Source: Alloalcanivorax mobilis
GTDB lineage: Bacteria; Pseudomonadota; Gammaproteobacteria; Pseudomonadales; Alcanivoracaceae
NCBI RefSeq assembly: GCF_002864685.1
Contig: NZ_NMQZ01000007.1
Span: 62,001-126,000, forward strand
Direction: 5' to 3'
DNA: 64,000 nucleotides
A model generated the notes under the pieces. The model was not told the DNA's origin. It searched no databases and saw only the letters and a program-made list of their open reading frames with translations. Each line of letters opens with the position of its first letter. Position 1 is the stretch's first letter. Shown piece after piece: positions 1-62,320 of the stretch. The translations under genes and the position numbers were made by a program.

Positions 1-85
1 GCTCAACCAGAAAGGCTCCGGCCGCTGTTTGATCTCGATCTGCGCCGCCGGCGGGCAGGGGGTTGTGGCGATCGTGGAAAAATAA
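1..85 (+). CDS. Thiolase (acetyl-CoA acyltransferase) C-terminal end, partial
   Basis: Only the last 27 codons are in the window, ending at a TAA. The fragment contains a Cys-Ala-Ala-Gly-Gly-Gln-Gly motif followed by a hydrophobic strand. This matches the C-terminal active-site loop of thiolases (usually C-x-G-G-G-Q-G), whose cysteine acts in the Claisen/thiolysis step of beta-oxidation. The first Gly of the usual motif reads Ala here. The gene runs into the window from the left and faces the convergent thioesterase gene, which fits a fatty-acid neighbourhood. Which thiolase subfamily it belongs to cannot be told from this tail. Confidence 0.75.
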   Translation, partial: LNQKGSGRCLISICAAGGQGVVAIVEK

Positions 86-178
86 GTTGAAAGTGAAAGG
101 TTAAAAGGAGAAAGCGCGGGCACGGCCTGGCTGAAAAGGCGAGGCCCTGCGCCGCGTTTCAACTTTTAACTTTCAACT
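85..178. terminator. Word-repeat inverted repeat between convergent genes
   Basis: The left arm (85-107) and right arm (156-178) are both built from the word AGTTGAAAGT and variants, in opposite orientation. The right arm overlaps the stop codon of the thioesterase gene. Lying between two convergent genes, it can fold in RNA from either strand and probably serves as a bidirectional terminator. There is no clean T-run after a compact stem, so a classical intrinsic terminator is not certain. Confidence 0.5.
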
Positions 179-1036
179 CTGCTGTCTGATCAACCCCTCC
201 TGACACACCGACGCCACCAGTTCTCCCTGGCGGTTGAACACCCGGCCGCGGGCGAAGCCGCGGGCGCCGGTGGCGATCGGGCTTTCCATGTCGTAGAACA
301 GCCAGTCGTCGATGCGGATCGGGCGGTGGAACCAGACGGTGTGATCGAGGCTGGCCACTTGCACTTCGCGGTTGACGAAGGTGAAGCCGTGGGGCAGCAG
401 GGCGGCGCCCATCAGATTGTGGTCACTGGCGTACGCCAGCAGCGCCTGATGCAGCAGTGGGTCGTCGCTCTGCAATCCGGTGGCGCGCAGCCAGGTCTGG
501 CGCAGCGGCGGGCTTTTCTCCGGGGTGAGCGGGTGGCGCCGGGTTACCGGGCGCAGCTCCACGGGCTTGCGGCGCAGCATGGCGGCACGGAAGTTCTCCG
601 ACATTTCCTCATTTTCCAGGAACTGGGCGTTCATTTCGTGCTCGGTGACCAGGGTGTCCGGGTCCGGGGCGCTGAATTCCGCGGTCTGGTGTTGAGGGCC
701 TTCTTCGGCGGTATGGAATGAGGCGGCCATATCAAAAATCGGCCGGCCGCGTTGCTCGGCGACCACCCGGCGGGTGGAAAAGGTGCCGCCATCGCGAACC
801 CGCTCGACCCGGTAGGTGATCGGCAGGCGGGCATCGCCGGGGCGCAGAAAATAGGCCTGCAGGGAATGGGCGGGGCGGTCGGTGACGGTGCGCGCCGCCG
901 CGATCAGCGCCTGGCTGACCACCTGGCCCCCGAAAATGCGCGGTCCCACGATATTGCGACTTTCCCCCTCGAACAGGTCTTCGTCGAGCCGGGTCAATTC
1001 GAGCAGGGCGAGCAGATCGGGCAGATCGGTATCCAT
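173..1036 (-). CDS. tesB: Acyl-CoA thioesterase II
   Basis: The 287-residue product matches the usual TesB length (about 286). It hydrolyses medium- and long-chain acyl-CoA to free fatty acid and CoA in the cytoplasm, using a double hotdog fold. Visible features are the N-terminal hotdog signature with IFGGQVVSQAL, the YASDH segment that carries the catalytic Asp, the LDHTVWFHRP strand of the second hotdog, and a C-terminal QEG with the catalytic Gln. The ATG at 1036 was chosen because AGAGGA lies just upstream and the protein then starts MDTDLPDLL as in the family; an upstream extension is possible but has no ribosome site. It converges with the thiolase gene. Confidence 0.92.
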   Translation of the reverse strand: MDTDLPDLLALLELTRLDEDLFEGESRNIVGPRIFGGQVVSQALIAAARTVTDRPAHSLQAYFLRPGDARLPITYRVERVRDGGTFSTRRVVAEQRGRPIFDMAASFHTAEEGPQHQTAEFSAPDPDTLVTEHEMNAQFLENEEMSENFRAAMLRRKPVELRPVTRRHPLTPEKSPPLRQTWLRATGLQSDDPLLHQALLAYASDHNLMGAALLPHGFTFVNREVQVASLDHTVWFHRPIRIDDWLFYDMESPIATGARGFARGRVFNRQGELVASVCQEGLIRQQS

Positions 1037-5653: not shown

Positions 5654-7771
<2,118 letters not shown>

Positions 7772-7772
<1 letters not shown>

Positions 7773-7866
7773 GGCGGCTTCGCCGCCCGTTACAGGATTC
7801 AGGATTCAGGATACATTGAAGAAAGAGCTGAGCGCGCCCCTGTATCCTTCATCCTGAATCCTGTAT
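7772..7866. terminator. Hairpin plus word-repeat inverted repeat after fadH
   Basis: Directly after the fadH stop lies a GC hairpin, GGGCGGC-TT-CGCCGCC (7772-7788). A long imperfect inverted repeat follows: the left arm (7791-7821) repeats the word CAGGATT three times, and the right arm (7840-7865) carries ATCCTGAATCCTG. Placed between convergent fadH and an acyl-CoA dehydrogenase, it probably ends transcription from both sides. It has the same build as other word-repeat hairpins in this window but a different word. Confidence 0.55.
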
Positions 7867-7881
7867 CGAGGCCGATGGCCT

Positions 7882-9084
7882 CTATTTCAGTTCCTTGGAG
7901 CTCAGCCCCAACACCCGTCGCGCGATGATCAATTGCTGGATCTGCTGGGTGCCTTCGAAGATGTCGAGAATCTTGGAGTCGCGCGCCCATTTTTCCAGCA
8001 GCTCGTCTTCGGTGTAACCCACCGAACCGGCCAGTTCCACGCAGCGCAAGGTAATGGCGTTGCCGACGCGCCCGGCTTTGGCCTTGGAAATGGAAGCCTC
8101 CAGCGAGTTGGATTGTTTGTTGTCCGCCATCCAGGCCGCTTTCATGGCCAGCCAGAACGCTGCTTCCCATTCCGCTTCCATGCGATACAGCTCGGCCTCG
8201 ACCGCGCTGGTGTTGTCCACCGGTTTGCCGTAGTCGTAATCAATGGCCTCGGCAAGCAGTTCACGGGTGCGTTCCAACGACGCCTTGGCCACACCCAGGG
8301 CGAAGCAGGCCACCAACGGCCGGGTGTTGTCGAAGGTCTCCATCACGCCACCGAAACCGCCGGTTTCCACTTCCGGGTTGCCGAGCAGATTTTCCGCCGG
8401 CACGCGGCAGTCGGTGAACGTAATGGCAGCGGTGTCGGAGGCGCGAATGCCCAGTTTCTTTTCCAGGCGCACCAGTTCCATGCCCGGCGTGCCCCATTCC
8501 ACCACGAACGATTTGATCGCCGCGCGCCCCAGCTTCGGGTCCAGGCTGGCCCACACCACCACGCAGTCGGCGCGCTCGCCGGAGGTGACATAGATCTTTT
8601 CGCCGTTGAGCAGGTAGTGATCGCCATCCTGGCGGGCGGTGGTGCGGATCGCCGCGGAATCGGAGCCGGCGCCGGGCTCGGTGATCGCCATCGCCGCCCA
8701 TTGGCCGCGAAAGCGTTCCAGTTGTTCCTCGTTGGCCACGGCGGCGATGGCCGCGTTGCCCAAACCCTGACGCGGCATGCCAAGCAGAAAGCCGGTGTCG
8801 CCGTAGCAAAACTCCAAGGCGCCCAGGCAGGTGCTCATGTTGGAGCCGTTCTTCACCGAGCCGTCGTTCTTTATCTTGCCTTTACCGGTCTGGCTGGCAC
8901 CGGCGGAGTTCGCCGGGTCGCCTTCGTTGAAGCCATCCAGGACCGAGGCGATCATGTCCAGCTCCTTGGGGCGCTGGTGCTCGGCGCGGTCATACTTTCG
9001 TGAAATCGGGCGGAACGTGCTGATCGCCACCTGATGGGCGTTATTGATCAGCGCTTTGAATTTCTTCGGAATCTCAATGTTCAT
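7882..9084 (-). CDS. Acyl-CoA dehydrogenase
   Basis: 400 residues. An FAD enzyme that introduces the alpha-beta double bond in acyl-CoA, the first step of beta-oxidation. Visible motifs are MAITEPGAGSD, YVTSGERADCVVVWA, and near the C-terminus DIFEGTQQIQQLIIARRVLG. The Glu in FEGT is the catalytic base position of medium-chain-type enzymes. The ATG at 9084 follows GGAAGGAAG. It lies 51 bp downstream of another acyl-CoA dehydrogenase gene on the same strand, so the two are probably co-transcribed. Chain-length specificity cannot be read. Confidence 0.92.
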   Translation of the reverse strand: MNIEIPKKFKALINNAHQVAISTFRPISRKYDRAEHQRPKELDMIASVLDGFNEGDPANSAGASQTGKGKIKNDGSVKNGSNMSTCLGALEFCYGDTGFLLGMPRQGLGNAAIAAVANEEQLERFRGQWAAMAITEPGAGSDSAAIRTTARQDGDHYLLNGEKIYVTSGERADCVVVWASLDPKLGRAAIKSFVVEWGTPGMELVRLEKKLGIRASDTAAITFTDCRVPAENLLGNPEVETGGFGGVMETFDNTRPLVACFALGVAKASLERTRELLAEAIDYDYGKPVDNTSAVEAELYRMEAEWEAAFWLAMKAAWMADNKQSNSLEASISKAKAGRVGNAITLRCVELAGSVGYTEDELLEKWARDSKILDIFEGTQQIQQLIIARRVLGLSSKELK

Positions 9085-18555: not shown

Positions 18556-18589
18556 CACTGAACACTGAACACTGAACACTGAATCAGTG
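18556..18589. repeat. Tandem CACTGAA word repeat
   Basis: Four successive copies of the 8-mer-like word (A)CACTGAA are followed by the reversed CAGTG, between the convergent kinase and GAF/GGDEF genes. The right end overlaps the stop codon of the minus-strand gene. It belongs to the same structural type as other word-repeat hairpins in the window, but here the return arm is very short. Confidence 0.6.
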
Positions 18590-52550: not shown

Positions 52551-52800
52551 GGCTATAAGCTTCAAGCTGCAAGCTACAAAGACAGGTGCGAGGGGAGGGC
52601 GCTTTGTAAAAGGCTAGACGCCGGACGCCGGACGCCGGACGCCGGACGCTAAACCCGGGCACCCCGATGATTGGCGCGCGCAAAATGCTGTTGCGTAGCC
52701 GCAATGCTCTTCGCGCCGGGTTTTGATCTTGGCGTCCGGCGTCCGGCGTCCGGCGTCCAGCCCCACCCGCACCACTTGCAGCTTGCAGCTTGAAGCCTGA
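52551..52800. repeat. Nested two-word palindrome between fadB and recJ
   Basis: A 250-bp nested inverted repeat. Outer arms: TAAGCTTCAAGCTGCAAGC (52556-52574) and GCAGCTTGCAGCTTGAAGC (52778-52796). Inner arms: about five copies of GGACGCC (52618-52650) and their reverse complement GGCGTCC (52731-52760). The core adds a further AAACCCGGGC / GCCGGGTTT pairing. It lies between divergent genes, so it cannot be a terminator for either of them. Confidence 0.8.
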
Positions 52801-52879: not shown

Positions 52880-54586
52880 ATGACCGACCGCCCGTTTCCC
52901 CGCCTTCGCCGCCGTCCCGCCGTTGCCGTTCCGGATTGGCCCGATGTGCCGCCTTTGCTGGCGCGGGTGCTGGCGGCGCGTGGTGTTAAGGACGCCTCGG
53001 AACTGGAGCTGACGCTTAAGGGCTTGCCGCGCCCGGATCGCTTCGGCGGGCTGGAAGCGGCGCTGGCCCTGTTGCTGCAGGCCCGCGAGCAGCACTGGCG
53101 CATCTGCGTGGTCGGCGATTACGACGCCGACGGCGCCACCGCCACCGCGCTGATGGTGCGCGGGCTGCAGCGGCTGGGCTACGCGCGCCCGGATTTTCTG
53201 GTGCCCAACCGCTTTGAATACGGCTATGGCCTGTCGCCGGCGATCGTCGAACTGGCCCGCGACACCATGAACCCGGATCTGATCATCACCGTGGACAACG
53301 GCATTGCCAGCATCGATGGCGTGGCCGCCGCCCGGGCGGCGGGCATGCGCGTGCTGATCACCGACCACCATTTGCCCGGCGACACCCTGCCCGAGGCGGA
53401 CGCGCTGCTCAACCCGCGCCTGCCCGGCCAGGATTTCCCGGCGGTCAATCTGGCCGGTGTCGGGGTGGCGTTCTATCTGCTGATGGCGCTGCAAAGCCGC
53501 CTGGACGTGAAAGGCGGCGTGGTCGACCTGATTGATCTGGTGGCGTTGGGCACGGTGGCTGATGTGGTGGTGCTGGACGGCACCAACCGCATCCTGGTGG
53601 AGCAGGGCCTGCGCCGCCTGCGCGCCGGCCAGGGCAGCCCGGGGATTCGCGCGCTGCTGGAGGTGGCCGGCCGTGACCCGGCGCGCCTGGTGGCCGCCGA
53701 TCTGGGCTTCGCGGTGGGGCCGCGCCTGAACGCCGCCGGCCGGCTGGCGGACATGAGCCACGGCATTGAATGCCTGCTCGCCGAAAGCGCGCCCGAGGCG
53801 CGTCGCTACGCCGAGGAACTGGACACCATCAACCGCGAACGGCGCGGCATCGAGCAGGGCATGCGCGACGCCGCCATGCACGAGGTGGCGCGGCTCGGCG
53901 AGCGCGAGCGTCTGCCGGTGGCGTTGTGCCTGCACGGCGAGGACTGGCACGAAGGGGTAGTGGGCATTCTGGCTTCGCGGGTCAAGGAAGCGGTGCACCG
54001 CCCGGTGATCGCCTTTGCCCCGGCCCGTGAGGCTGGCCTGCTGAAAGGCTCCGGGCGCTCGATCCCGGGCCTGCATTTGCGTGACGTGCTGGACGCCGTG
54101 GCCACCCGCCACCCGGGCCTGCTGCACAAGTTCGGTGGCCACGCCATGGCCGCCGGCATGACCCTGGCCGCCGCCGACCTGGCCGCTTTCACTGCCGCGT
54201 TCCAGCAGGCGGTGGCGGCGGTGGCCGCCGCCGATCTGTTCGACGAAGTGGTGGACACCGACGGCGAACTGGCCGAGAGCGACATCTGCTTGGGCACCGC
54301 CGAGCTGCTCAACCACCGTTTTCCCTGGGGCCAGGGGTTTCCAGCGCCGCGCTTTGACGGCCGCTTCGAGGTGCTCCAGCACCGGGTGGTGGGCGAGCGG
54401 CACCTGAAACTGACCCTGGGTCTGCCGGCCAGCCGCTCGGTGGTGGACGGCATCCACTTCAACGCCGCCCCGGCGCTGCTGGGCGCCCGCCTGAGCCGCA
54501 TCGAAGGGATCTACCGCCTGGAGGTCAACGAATTCCGTGGCCTGCGCCAGCCGCAGTTGCTGTTCGAGTTTTTGCGGGCGGTGTGA
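52880..54586 (+). CDS. recJ: Single-stranded-DNA-specific exonuclease RecJ
   Basis: 568 residues. It degrades single-stranded DNA 5'->3' in recombination, mismatch and base-excision repair. The DHH phosphoesterase motifs D80-Y-D82-A-D84-G, VDNGIAS and VLITDHHLPGDTLP are present, followed by the DHHA1 part with GGHAMAAGMTL and a C-terminal OB-like domain. The ATG at 52880 begins MTDRPFPRLRRRP. In enterobacteria recJ directly precedes prfB and lysS; here the same order holds, with a tandem array and one small gene inserted. Confidence 0.95.
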   Translation: MTDRPFPRLRRRPAVAVPDWPDVPPLLARVLAARGVKDASELELTLKGLPRPDRFGGLEAALALLLQAREQHWRICVVGDYDADGATATALMVRGLQRLGYARPDFLVPNRFEYGYGLSPAIVELARDTMNPDLIITVDNGIASIDGVAAARAAGMRVLITDHHLPGDTLPEADALLNPRLPGQDFPAVNLAGVGVAFYLLMALQSRLDVKGGVVDLIDLVALGTVADVVVLDGTNRILVEQGLRRLRAGQGSPGIRALLEVAGRDPARLVAADLGFAVGPRLNAAGRLADMSHGIECLLAESAPEARRYAEELDTINRERRGIEQGMRDAAMHEVARLGERERLPVALCLHGEDWHEGVVGILASRVKEAVHRPVIAFAPAREAGLLKGSGRSIPGLHLRDVLDAVATRHPGLLHKFGGHAMAAGMTLAAADLAAFTAAFQQAVAAVAAADLFDEVVDTDGELAESDICLGTAELLNHRFPWGQGFPAPRFDGRFEVLQHRVVGERHLKLTLGLPASRSVVDGIHFNAAPALLGARLSRIEGIYRLEVNEFRGLRQPQLLFEFLRAV

Positions 54587-54631: not shown

Positions 54632-54642
54632 CACTCTCCAGA

Positions 54643-55258
54643 GGGCACGGCGGCTCTAACCGGTTCCCTCCCCCCAGGCGGGGCAGGGACAGGGAGAGGG
54701 GGCAGGCTCAAACCGGCTAGGGCACGGCGGCTCTAACCGGGTCCCTCCCCCCTGGCGGGGGAGGGACAGGGAGAGGGGGCAAGCCCAAACCGGCTAGGGC
54801 ACGGCGGCTCTAACCGGTTCCCTCCCCCCAGGCGGGGCAGGGACAGGGAGAGGGGGCAGGCTCAAACCGGCTAGGGCACGGCGGCTCTAACCGGGTCCCT
54901 CCCCCCTGGCGGGGGAGGGACAGGGAGAGGGGGCAAGCCCAAACCGGCTAGGGCACGGCGGCTCTAACCGGTTCCCTCCCCCCAGGCGGGGCAGGGACAG
55001 GGAGAGGGGGCAGGCTCAAACCGGCTAGGGCACGGCGGCTCTAACCGGGTCCCTCCCCCCTGGCGGGGGAGGGACAGGGAGAGGGGGCAAGCCCAAACCG
55101 GCTAGGGCACGGCGGCTCTAACCGGTTCCCTCCCCCCAGGCGGGGCAGGGACAGGGAGAGGGGGCAGGCTCAAACCGGCTAGGGCACGGCGGCTCTAACC
55201 GGTTCCCTCCCCCCTGGCGGGGGAGGGGCAGGGAGAGGGGGCAAGCCCAAACCGGCTG
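54643..55258. repeat. Eight-unit 77-bp tandem array with 154-bp dimer pattern
   Basis: Eight head-to-tail units of exactly 77 bp start at 54643, 54720, 54797, 54874, 54951, 55028, 55105 and 55182. Each begins GGGCACGGCGGCTCTAACCG and contains a CCCTCCCCCC...GGGG(C/A)GGG...CAGGGAGAGGGGGC hairpin-like core. Two versions alternate strictly (type A: CCCAGGCGGGGCAGGG with CAGGCTCAAACC; type B: CCTGGCGGGGGAGGG with CAAGCCCAAACC), giving four copies of a 154-bp dimer. The last unit is a hybrid. Adjacent dimers look nearly identical, which points to recent amplification. Confidence 0.93.
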
Positions 55259-56913: not shown

Positions 56914-56985
56914 GACGCTGGACGCCAGACGCCAGACGCCGGACGCTACCACCGAGAAAGCGTCCGGCGTCTGGCGTCCAGCGTC
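56914..56985. repeat. Word-repeat hairpin between prfB and lysS
   Basis: The left arm (56914-56947) consists of four GACGCC(A/G)-type words beginning GACGCTGGACGCCAGACG; the right arm (56959-56985) is the matching reverse complement ending GTCCAGCGTC. The fold is nearly perfect over 27 pairs with a short loop. It lies between two genes in the same direction and 26 bp before the lysS start, where it could attenuate transcription or shield lysS translation. Confidence 0.75.
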
Positions 56986-61227: not shown

Positions 61228-61308
61228 TGTGGGAGCGGTCCCCGACCGCGAACCGAGCCGAAGGCGAGGCCGGGCCAAGCCGATTCGCGGTCAGGGGCCG
61301 CTTCCACA
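61228..61308. repeat. REP-like hairpin element
   Basis: Outer arms 61228-61252 (TGTGGGAGCGGTCCCCGAC...) and 61284-61308 pair over 25 bp with two or three mismatches. The beginning TGTGGGAGCGG and an end TTCCACA recall Pseudomonas REP sequences. It lies in the intergenic gap between two convergent genes and may act as bidirectional terminator or a mobile REP-type element. Confidence 0.65.
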
Positions 61309-61354: not shown

Positions 61355-62320
61355 CTATTCCCGAGGCTTGGGCAGCGGGTAAGGCAGCGCCAGAGCCTCG
61401 GCGTTCAAGGGTTGCTCCTCGGCATACAGCTCACCCTGATGGTCCAGGCGCACCACCGCCAGCAGGCGCGGCGAAGGCTCGCCGGGGGCGCTGTCCACCA
61501 CCTCGCCGACGGCGCGGCCGTCGCCATTGCGCAGCGGCTGGCCGGCGGCCAGCGGCTCGCCCTGGTAAGCGAACAGCGCCATGCGCTGTTTCAGTTTGCC
61601 CTTGAAGTGCATCCGCGCCACCACTTCCTGGCCGGTGTAGCAGCCCTTTTTGAAGCTGACGCCGCCGAGCAGGTCGTAGTTGAGCACCTGCGGCAGAAAC
61701 AGATCCTCGCCGCCGGGGTAGATCTGGCCCTCGCCGATGGAAATTTCCTGGAAGCGCCAGCCGGCGCTGTCGATGAGCCGGCGTGGCCCGCTCAGAGCCG
61801 GCCAGTGCGCGGCCAGCGCCTCGGCATCGGCGATCACCAGGGCCAGATCGCCATGGGCGAAACGCAGCACGGTCACGGCGTCGTCACTGAGCACCTGGCC
61901 GGGCTGCGGGTCCGGCAGGTGGGCGTCGGCCAGGGTCGCCGATACCGCGCCGGACAGCCCCGCCACCAGACACTCCGGCGCCTCGCTGAAGGTGACCTTG
62001 GCGCGCAGTTTGTATTTTTCCAGGCTCTTGATGGTGGCCGCGCTCTGGCTCGCCGGGCACAGGATCAGGTAGCCCTCGGCCACGGGCAGCAGGCGCACAC
62101 TGACCAGCCCGCGGCCTTTCAACGACAGATGCATGGCGGCGCGGTGGCCACCGGCGTCGATGTGTTTCAGGTCGCAGGTCAGTTGCCCCTGCAGATAGTC
62201 GCCGGCTTCTTCACCGGTAACGCGGATCACCGCCAGGTGATCGCAAACCGCCAGGGAGGGTTCGGCGGTGCCGCCGTGCGCCGGCGTTTGGTCGCCAAGC
62301 AGAGCTTGCCATGCGCTCAT
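61355..62320 (-). CDS. ygfZ: Folate-binding protein YgfZ (Fe-S cluster maintenance)
   Basis: 321 residues. GcvT-like fold. The signature KKGCYTGQEVVARMHFKGKLKQRM, with its functional cysteine, is intact. YgfZ uses folate to help repair or synthesise Fe-S clusters in certain enzymes. ATG at 62320. It is divergent from sdhE with a 131-bp gap, an arrangement also seen in E. coli. Confidence 0.95.
   Translation of the reverse strand: MSAWQALLGDQTPAHGGTAEPSLAVCDHLAVIRVTGEEAGDYLQGQLTCDLKHIDAGGHRAAMHLSLKGRGLVSVRLLPVAEGYLILCPASQSAATIKSLEKYKLRAKVTFSEAPECLVAGLSGAVSATLADAHLPDPQPGQVLSDDAVTVLRFAHGDLALVIADAEALAAHWPALSGPRRLIDSAGWRFQEISIGEGQIYPGGEDLFLPQVLNYDLLGGVSFKKGCYTGQEVVARMHFKGKLKQRMALFAYQGEPLAAGQPLRNGDGRAVGEVVDSAPGEPSPRLLAVVRLDHQGELYAEEQPLNAEALALPYPLPKPRE

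Follow-up and report, generated by a model that had tools for sequence, protein, structure and literature searches.

The genome of Alloalcanivorax mobilis harbours dispersed palindromes whose arms consist of tandem 7-bp words (heptads) and are remodelled in whole units. We propose that these elements have a REP-like role as hairpins at 3′ ends and that some copies are under selection, a reading to which we assign a probability of about 0.55. The elements were identified in a window of 64,000 nt, the whole stretch of DNA analysed, which corresponds to positions 62001–126000 of contig 67 in a 4,098,096-base draft of 92 contigs (the source genome). Genomes G001–G045 of the same family, among them G018–G029 of the same genus, served for comparison. 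Tracts were counted in a 464-kb sample made up of the window and 20 stretches of 20 kb (contigs 1, 45, and 56), picked by convenience and not at random, with a score of at least 13 for comparing periods and at least 12 for locating tracts in gaps. Genes were called with a purpose-made small codon-usage caller, unchecked against annotation.

A preliminary description had reported five word-repeat hairpins in the window. Those at 85–178, 7791–7865, 52551–52800, and 56914–56985 were recovered, while the one at 18556–18583 proved to be an unpaired tract, in which four CACTGAA words precede one lone TCAGTG and no inverse array is present (Table 1). The words, given as 7–10 bases long, measured 7 at every place. 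The stretch 52551–52800 consists of two nested hairpins, a core-A element lying inside an AAGC hairpin, and at 56914–56985 the left arm is one heptad longer than the right. RNA folding gave z values of −9.5 (56914), −6.2 (7791), and −7.6 (85). The element at 84–178 is flanked on the left by a thiolase-like gene end (by eye) and by an acyl-CoA thioesterase gene (173–1036, minus strand). No Rfam family matched the window at gathering score; a search of eight loci by E-value gave two sub-gathering matches (mir-3180, mir-B6), both at the prfB-lysS hairpin locus L127 and taken as chance. A plasmid search returned only gene matches, none to heptad hairpin elements. Eight 77-bp units (or four of 154 bp) repeated in tandem were also observed at 54642–55257, behind a recJ-like gene (52880–54586).

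Table 1 Heptad-word features located in the 64,000-nt window
Feature	Positions	Strand	Context
GACGCC-type (GACGCCN) heptad hairpin	56914–56985	+	between same-strand prfB (stop 56912) and lysS (start 57012)
AGTT-word hairpin (AGTTGAA/AGTTAAA) with core B	84–178		between convergent genes; common to six species
CAGGATT-word hairpin	7791–7865		between convergent genes 5754–7772 (plus) and 7882–9084 (minus)
CACTGAA x4 tandem tract	18556–18583		gap of a convergent gene pair; missing at the 10 other genus loci that have the ortholog
Outer AAGC-word arms	52552–52579 and 52775–52796		enclose inner GACGCCG hairpin (element 52552–52796)
Inner GACGCCG-word hairpin	52612–52762		core A at 52652–52729; dispersed copy

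Across the 464-kb sample, 40 tracts of period 7 reached a score of 13. Multiples of 7 aside, no other period between 4 and 21 exceeded six such tracts, and first-order Markov sequence contained none. At a score of at least 12, called intergenic gaps contained 42 of the 44 period-7 tracts, spread over 30 of 295 gaps, versus 0–1 tracts each for periods 5, 8, 10, 11, and 13; the remaining two were located close to where contig 56 begins, beyond the called gaps. By extrapolation from these 44, the source genome would hold about 390 period-7 tracts. Lag 7 was the strongest periodicity in 22 of the 51 gaps whose best inverted repeat scored at least 12. The 21 such gaps with strict tracts had a mean identity of 0.81 at lag 7 and of 0.19–0.30 at all other lags from 2 to 15 except 14. 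The non-heptad inverted repeats in gaps include REP-like palindromes. The proposal of one architecture recurring with differing words holds genome-wide. The accompanying statement that the word differs at every place fails at this scale, as CAGGATT x3 occurs at five places and 144 overlapping matches to GCTTGNA were counted in the source genome.

The hairpin loops were homologous within two word families. With 52612–52762 as query, 10 places, the query and three members of one tandem array on contig 22 included, matched 103–106 of 106 bases at 82–100% identity; there were 48 matches in all, many owed to the words. Core A alone was found at 23 places in the source genome, and a search of 44 further genomes of the family (E ≤ 0.01) gave no match. 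The AGTT-word family has a distinct core B (GCGCGGGCACGGCC...CCGCG), and its element occupies 17 distinct places, query included, with at least 75 of 96 query bases and 74–100% identity. No common core was visible by eye in the loops of the inspected AAGC-word copies, so copying is demonstrated for two families only. The strand carrying GACGC, AGTT, AGGAT, AAGC (CAAGC), or CAGTG reads toward the loop in 23 of 23 source-genome hairpins, although the motifs were picked after seeing the data and one hairpin has only four motif counts to three; agreement within families only corresponds to 2^-18 if copies are taken as independent, which they are not. Samples of 12 other genomes yielded 16 inverted repeats over tracts, of which 13 were inward, one outward, and two ties; by eye, heptad arms are missing from the outward case and from one tie, and the remaining tie is inward.

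These shared cores and the fixed polarity, together with the presence of the same 84–178 copy in six species, contradict the earlier view that the hairpins do not represent a copied element. Judged by comparison of the copies, at least two word families were shown to be elements copied around the genome. No target-site duplication was seen by eye in the inspected core-A copies. Loops measured 17–195 nt in the 23 source-genome heptad hairpins, and a CGCG clamp at both inner arm ends, present in 6 of 22 heptad hairpins and 3 of 29 other inverted repeats, is suggestive only as a common trait. A common skeleton of all words, sought with one word per family (ten words), was rejected, its information content being matched or exceeded by a fraction of 0.10 of 200 random flips.

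Period-7 tracts were found in 9 of 43 convergent, 17 of 190 tandem, and 4 of 62 divergent gaps, with an excess in convergent gaps (9/43 vs 21/252 for the rest, p = 0.024; divergent gaps vs the rest, p = 0.35). Of the 17 sampled elements in tandem gaps, 16 lay nearer the upstream stop codon; the median distance was 3 nt to that stop and 46 nt to the following start. Copies of the families were placed from 59 loci, 56 of which were counted (two duplicate places and L327 left out); nine were skipped (four without called flanking genes, five clipped), leaving 47. Although some placed copies are neighbours of one another or overlap the 464-kb sample, so that not all are independent, 23 of 27 in tandem gaps were again nearer the upstream stop (median 10 vs 129 nt), and 24 of 43 in tandem and convergent gaps stood within 15 nt of a stop. 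Core-A copies within 25 nt of the stop in tandem gaps faced the same way in 11 of 12 cases, and those farther away (n = 7) faced four to three. This 3′ position could reflect only space that tolerates extra DNA.

Orthologous gaps differed strongly in content. The prfB-lysS gap, with 30 loci among 46 genomes read, held GACGCC-type elements at nine, GTCTGAC/GTCGGAC-type elements at seven, other palindromes at five, and unclear content at one, and was short at eight; two open frames share LysS at G004:C1:151901-153372, possibly owing to a frameshift or a sequencing error. For the 7791 gap, where 13 genus loci were compared and types assigned by eye, the CAGGAT hairpin was present in the source genome, G021, and G022, and a CAGTTAA/CAGTGAA hairpin in G023, while G029 had a short tandem tract, some of it with period 8; REP-like palindromes stood in G020, G024, G025, and G027, other short palindromes in G018, G019, and G028, and nothing in G026. 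The 18556 tract occurred in the source genome only (1 of 11 loci). At gaps other than 84–178, presence, word, and core turn over quickly.

Among the 13 genus loci of the 84–178 gap, the element is common to the source genome, G020, G021, G022, G023, and G026. Identity to the source copy ranged over 94–98%, with 92/95 in G023, 91/94 in G020, 89/95 in G026 and G022, and 80/82 in G021, where the left end is different and near a contig end. The adjoining thioesterase coding sequence was identical at 673–677 of 848–851 positions (about 79%), so that conservation of the element exceeds that of the neighbouring gene in all five other species holding it (Fisher p from 5e-6 to 3e-4). Since a non-coding element conserved above its neighbouring gene is hard to explain otherwise, this suggests a function, and with it selection, at 84–178; conversion by other copies is unlikely because 84–178 is only 74% identical to the core-B query copy. 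In G020, G021, and G022, the right arm is extended at its outer end by one heptad. In the same gap of other genomes, a GCGTGTT-word hairpin was found in G019 and G029, and by eye REP-like palindromes in G024, G025, and G027 and another palindrome in G018 and G028. At the G021 locus (L357, contig C13), the element continues on its left into DNA similar to the flank of another source-genome element (L163), possibly by recombination between copies or by misassembly.

The most serious alternative, which we nevertheless hold to be unlikely, is that the tracts are neutral repeats produced by heptamer slippage in the tolerant space behind stop codons and have no function. The rapid turnover of word and presence agrees with it, as do the independent gain of units by single arms (L168), the lack of a G.U excess in source-genome hairpins, and an earlier proposal of a 7-bp slippage preference, cited in the available portion of PMC4692102. 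It accounts poorly for the fixed polarity, for the shared cores, and for a copy at 84–178 conserved above the adjoining coding sequence. A second, rather doubtful possibility is that the class is set not by sequence but by the 7-bp period, inward polarity, and post-stop position, the word being free to drift. This idea stems from unrelated words in the same gap of sister species, AGTT and GCGTGTT at 84–178 and CAGGAT and CAGTTAA at 7791. Very tentatively, the 7-bp period might then be read or made by a polymerase or by an RNA- or DNA-binding protein that steps in heptads.

Gain or loss of whole 7-mers was seen directly in single arms (56914, L168, and the 84–178 orthologs); at L168 a single variant makes up the left arm, and the right arm contains runs of two. 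The preliminary description had invoked template switching, which would predict arms changing in step. With fixed arms, own partners at prfB-lysS paired better in the GACGCC-type group (seven of nine loci used; p = 0.008), and the result for the GTCTGAC/GTCGGAC group (seven loci) was p = 0.21; arms chosen by cis alignment, a biased procedure, gave p from 0.0003 to 0.011 for the first group and 0.0008 or 0.0004 for the second. The idea of in-step arms thus found support in one of two ortholog groups and none among dispersed copies, where cis pairing brought no gain over trans pairing for 14 AGTT copies (p = 0.87, with one mis-cut right arm, 304, left in the test) or eight core-A copies (p = 0.37). 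Seven ACGC hairpins favoured cis over trans (p = 0.0002), but their arms had been chosen by cis alignment and the value is biased. Mismatches between the prfB-lysS arms comprised 25 G.U and 8 A.C (p = 0.005, overstated since the species are related), and 11 source-genome tandem-gap hairpins gave no G.U excess (14 G.U, 20 A.C). An RNA-level constraint is therefore hinted at one locus and was not seen overall.

Separate formation at each site, by slippage together with template switching between arms, could produce the in-step arms of the first prfB-lysS group, which selection fits as well, and the differing words in one gap between species. We regard it as improbable in view of the shared cores, the single polarity, the missing cis advantage in the dispersed copies, and the L168 arms, which are homogenised for different variants within one element. 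Telomerase-like end addition, considered by analogy between inward arrays and fused telomeres, was rejected because the source genome has no PF00078 (RVT_1) match; 17 of 45 family genomes have one.

Membership of the REP/REPIN world, with heptad arms as a variant moved by a RAYT transposase, seems more improbable again. The GTAG and CGTC palindromes of that group are likewise dispersed, often in inverted pairs with a spacer, and mostly downstream of genes (PMC3116915 and PMC3733652, as far as their available portions go), and the source genome has three Y1_Tnp (RAYT) matches. Heptad tracts (score at least 9) nevertheless occurred at only 4 of 16 RAYT loci of six genomes, and at one of three in the source genome, about the background of roughly 0.49 tracts per 3.4 kb of that genome. 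RAYT mobilisation is consequently not favoured. One source-genome RAYT is flanked by ordinary REP palindromes, and an unscored look revealed no common GTAG end. At the source RAYT locus L341, a CTGAACA tract lies about 180 nt before the domain match. The CGTC REP has a stem of 8–9 bp, a loop of 4–5 nt, and a tail near CCA (PMC3733652, available portion); heptad hairpins have far longer stems and the wider loops given above, and, unlike REPs and REPINs, arms that are heptad arrays of variable length with no RAYT association seen. Derivation from known REPs, which the preliminary description had named as a possible refutation, thus receives no support for either the GTAG or the CGTC type by the features tested.

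Other repeats were observed alongside. A REP-like palindrome family (TGTGGGAGCGGTCCTTGACCGCGAA) occurs at 61228–61308 of the window and at L008 11683–11772, L021 13418–13503, L024 11563–11848, and L340, and copies of it stand around one Y1_Tnp match of the source genome. Two stretches of about 269 bp (L016 17691–17959 and L020 7203–7471) have similar 30-base inverted ends (TAGGGCCTGTTCACACTCATT) and are MITE-like, and in G013 a GGAGCCC x12 array (L346 179–262) lies in the stretch surrounding a Y1_Tnp match.

The least probable explanation, ordinary Rho-independent terminators with unusual stems, would suit the post-stop position and the convergent-gap excess, yet a sense-direction T-rich tail, with T at 5 or more of 8 positions, followed only 1 of 18 heptad hairpins, a weak test given 1 of 27 for other inverted repeats.

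We therefore return to dispersed heptad-armed palindromes with a REP-like 3′-end role. The elements are small (about 70–250 bp) non-coding palindromes with arms of 7-bp words and a fixed polarity, forming several families, at least two of which, each with a word and a matching core, spread as copies according to the loop homology. After arrival, the arms separately gain or lose whole 7-bp units, as the comparison of arms and of species shows, probably by replication slippage. Given the observed preference for the spot directly 3′ of stop codons over the rest of the gap, transcripts of the adjoining genes would either terminate within a strong RNA hairpin or pass through it. The most likely role would be that of a REP-like 3′-end hairpin, protecting the ends of mRNAs against 3′ exonucleases or insulating adjacent transcripts from each other; the prfB-lysS hairpin may modulate read-through. 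Some copies, such as the conserved 84–178, would be under selection, and many are probably near-neutral.

Samples of other genomes showed that period-7 tracts vary widely in density. Per 100 kb there were 9.5 in the source genome, 13 in G013, 6 in G011 and G025, 4 in G029, 3 in G412, 2 in G019 and G023, 1 in G022 and G034, and 0 in G020, G500, and G472, the last three carrying GCTTG arrays outside the sample. The pattern AGCTTGNAGCTTGNAGC was found in 15 of 244 genomes of the order, with 189 overlapping matches in the source genome; its reversed control gave 0 in all 15 and 1–18 matches in four other genomes. A longer pattern was confined to the source genome among 274 genomes of the class. 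Among the 80 named LysS loci kept, the best match was an Alcanivoracaceae MAG at 84% identity, and a period-7 tract was present at five (Halomonas, Chromohalobacter, two Pseudomonas, and one MAG). Inspection by eye, covering 44 of the 80, revealed heptad-like palindromes in the prfB-lysS gap of Halomonas and Chromohalobacter.

The closest precedent is the GGGAATC heptamer arrays of Xanthomonas (Rehm et al. 2015, PMC4692102, available portion). These are intergenic 7-bp tandem words, with 70 (Xcc) and 75 (Xac) close convergent pairs forming inverted repeats; most downstream copies lie within 50 bp of a stop codon or over it, the arrays are under-represented between divergent genes, and their length and sequence change fast between species. 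The source genome has the same intergenic tandem heptamers (42/44 tracts), inward paired arrays (23/23, and 13/16 in relatives), closeness to stop codons (16/17 and 23/27), and fast turnover. The Xanthomonas arrays have one G-rich word and were explained by G-quadruplexes (PMC4692102), whereas one genome here has several word families, some of them AT-rich, and cores between the arms, which the available portion of that paper does not mention. What is new compared with that account is the many words, the shared cores, and the words without G-tracts. AGTTAAA, CAGTGTT, and CAAGCTT have no run of three G as in GGGNATC, and an explanation by G-quadruplexes fails for the AT-rich words. The STRR heptamers of cyanobacteria are likewise tandem and lie in non-coding DNA; they are not known to form paired arms with cores.

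A literature search of open-licence PMC papers returned no description of heptad-armed hairpins beyond PMC4692102, whose available portion also mentions heptanucleotides of Calothrix; PMC4060949 and PMC13155455, available in part, were further comparison papers. The TAACTGA repeats of Beggiatoaceae are likewise intergenic tandem heptamers in a gammaproteobacterium, but they are direct repeats, mostly upstream of start codons, with one inverted case in 170 sets (PMC4679880, available portion). The same text recounts an earlier survey in which heptamers were the most abundant long simple repeat class in most genomes, and over-representation of heptamers is stated in the available portion of PMC4692102.

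Taken together, the sequence comparisons point to a real class of dispersed palindromes with 7-bp arms, mostly behind genes, at least one copy of which is apparently under constraint, and whose function we infer. One genome combines about 390 tracts (extrapolated), several word families, a fixed polarity, a preference for stop codons, and one copy conserved above its neighbour gene. Two questions can thereby be put to the test: by what agent these elements are copied, and whether hairpins with heptad arms have an effect at the 3′ ends of mRNAs.
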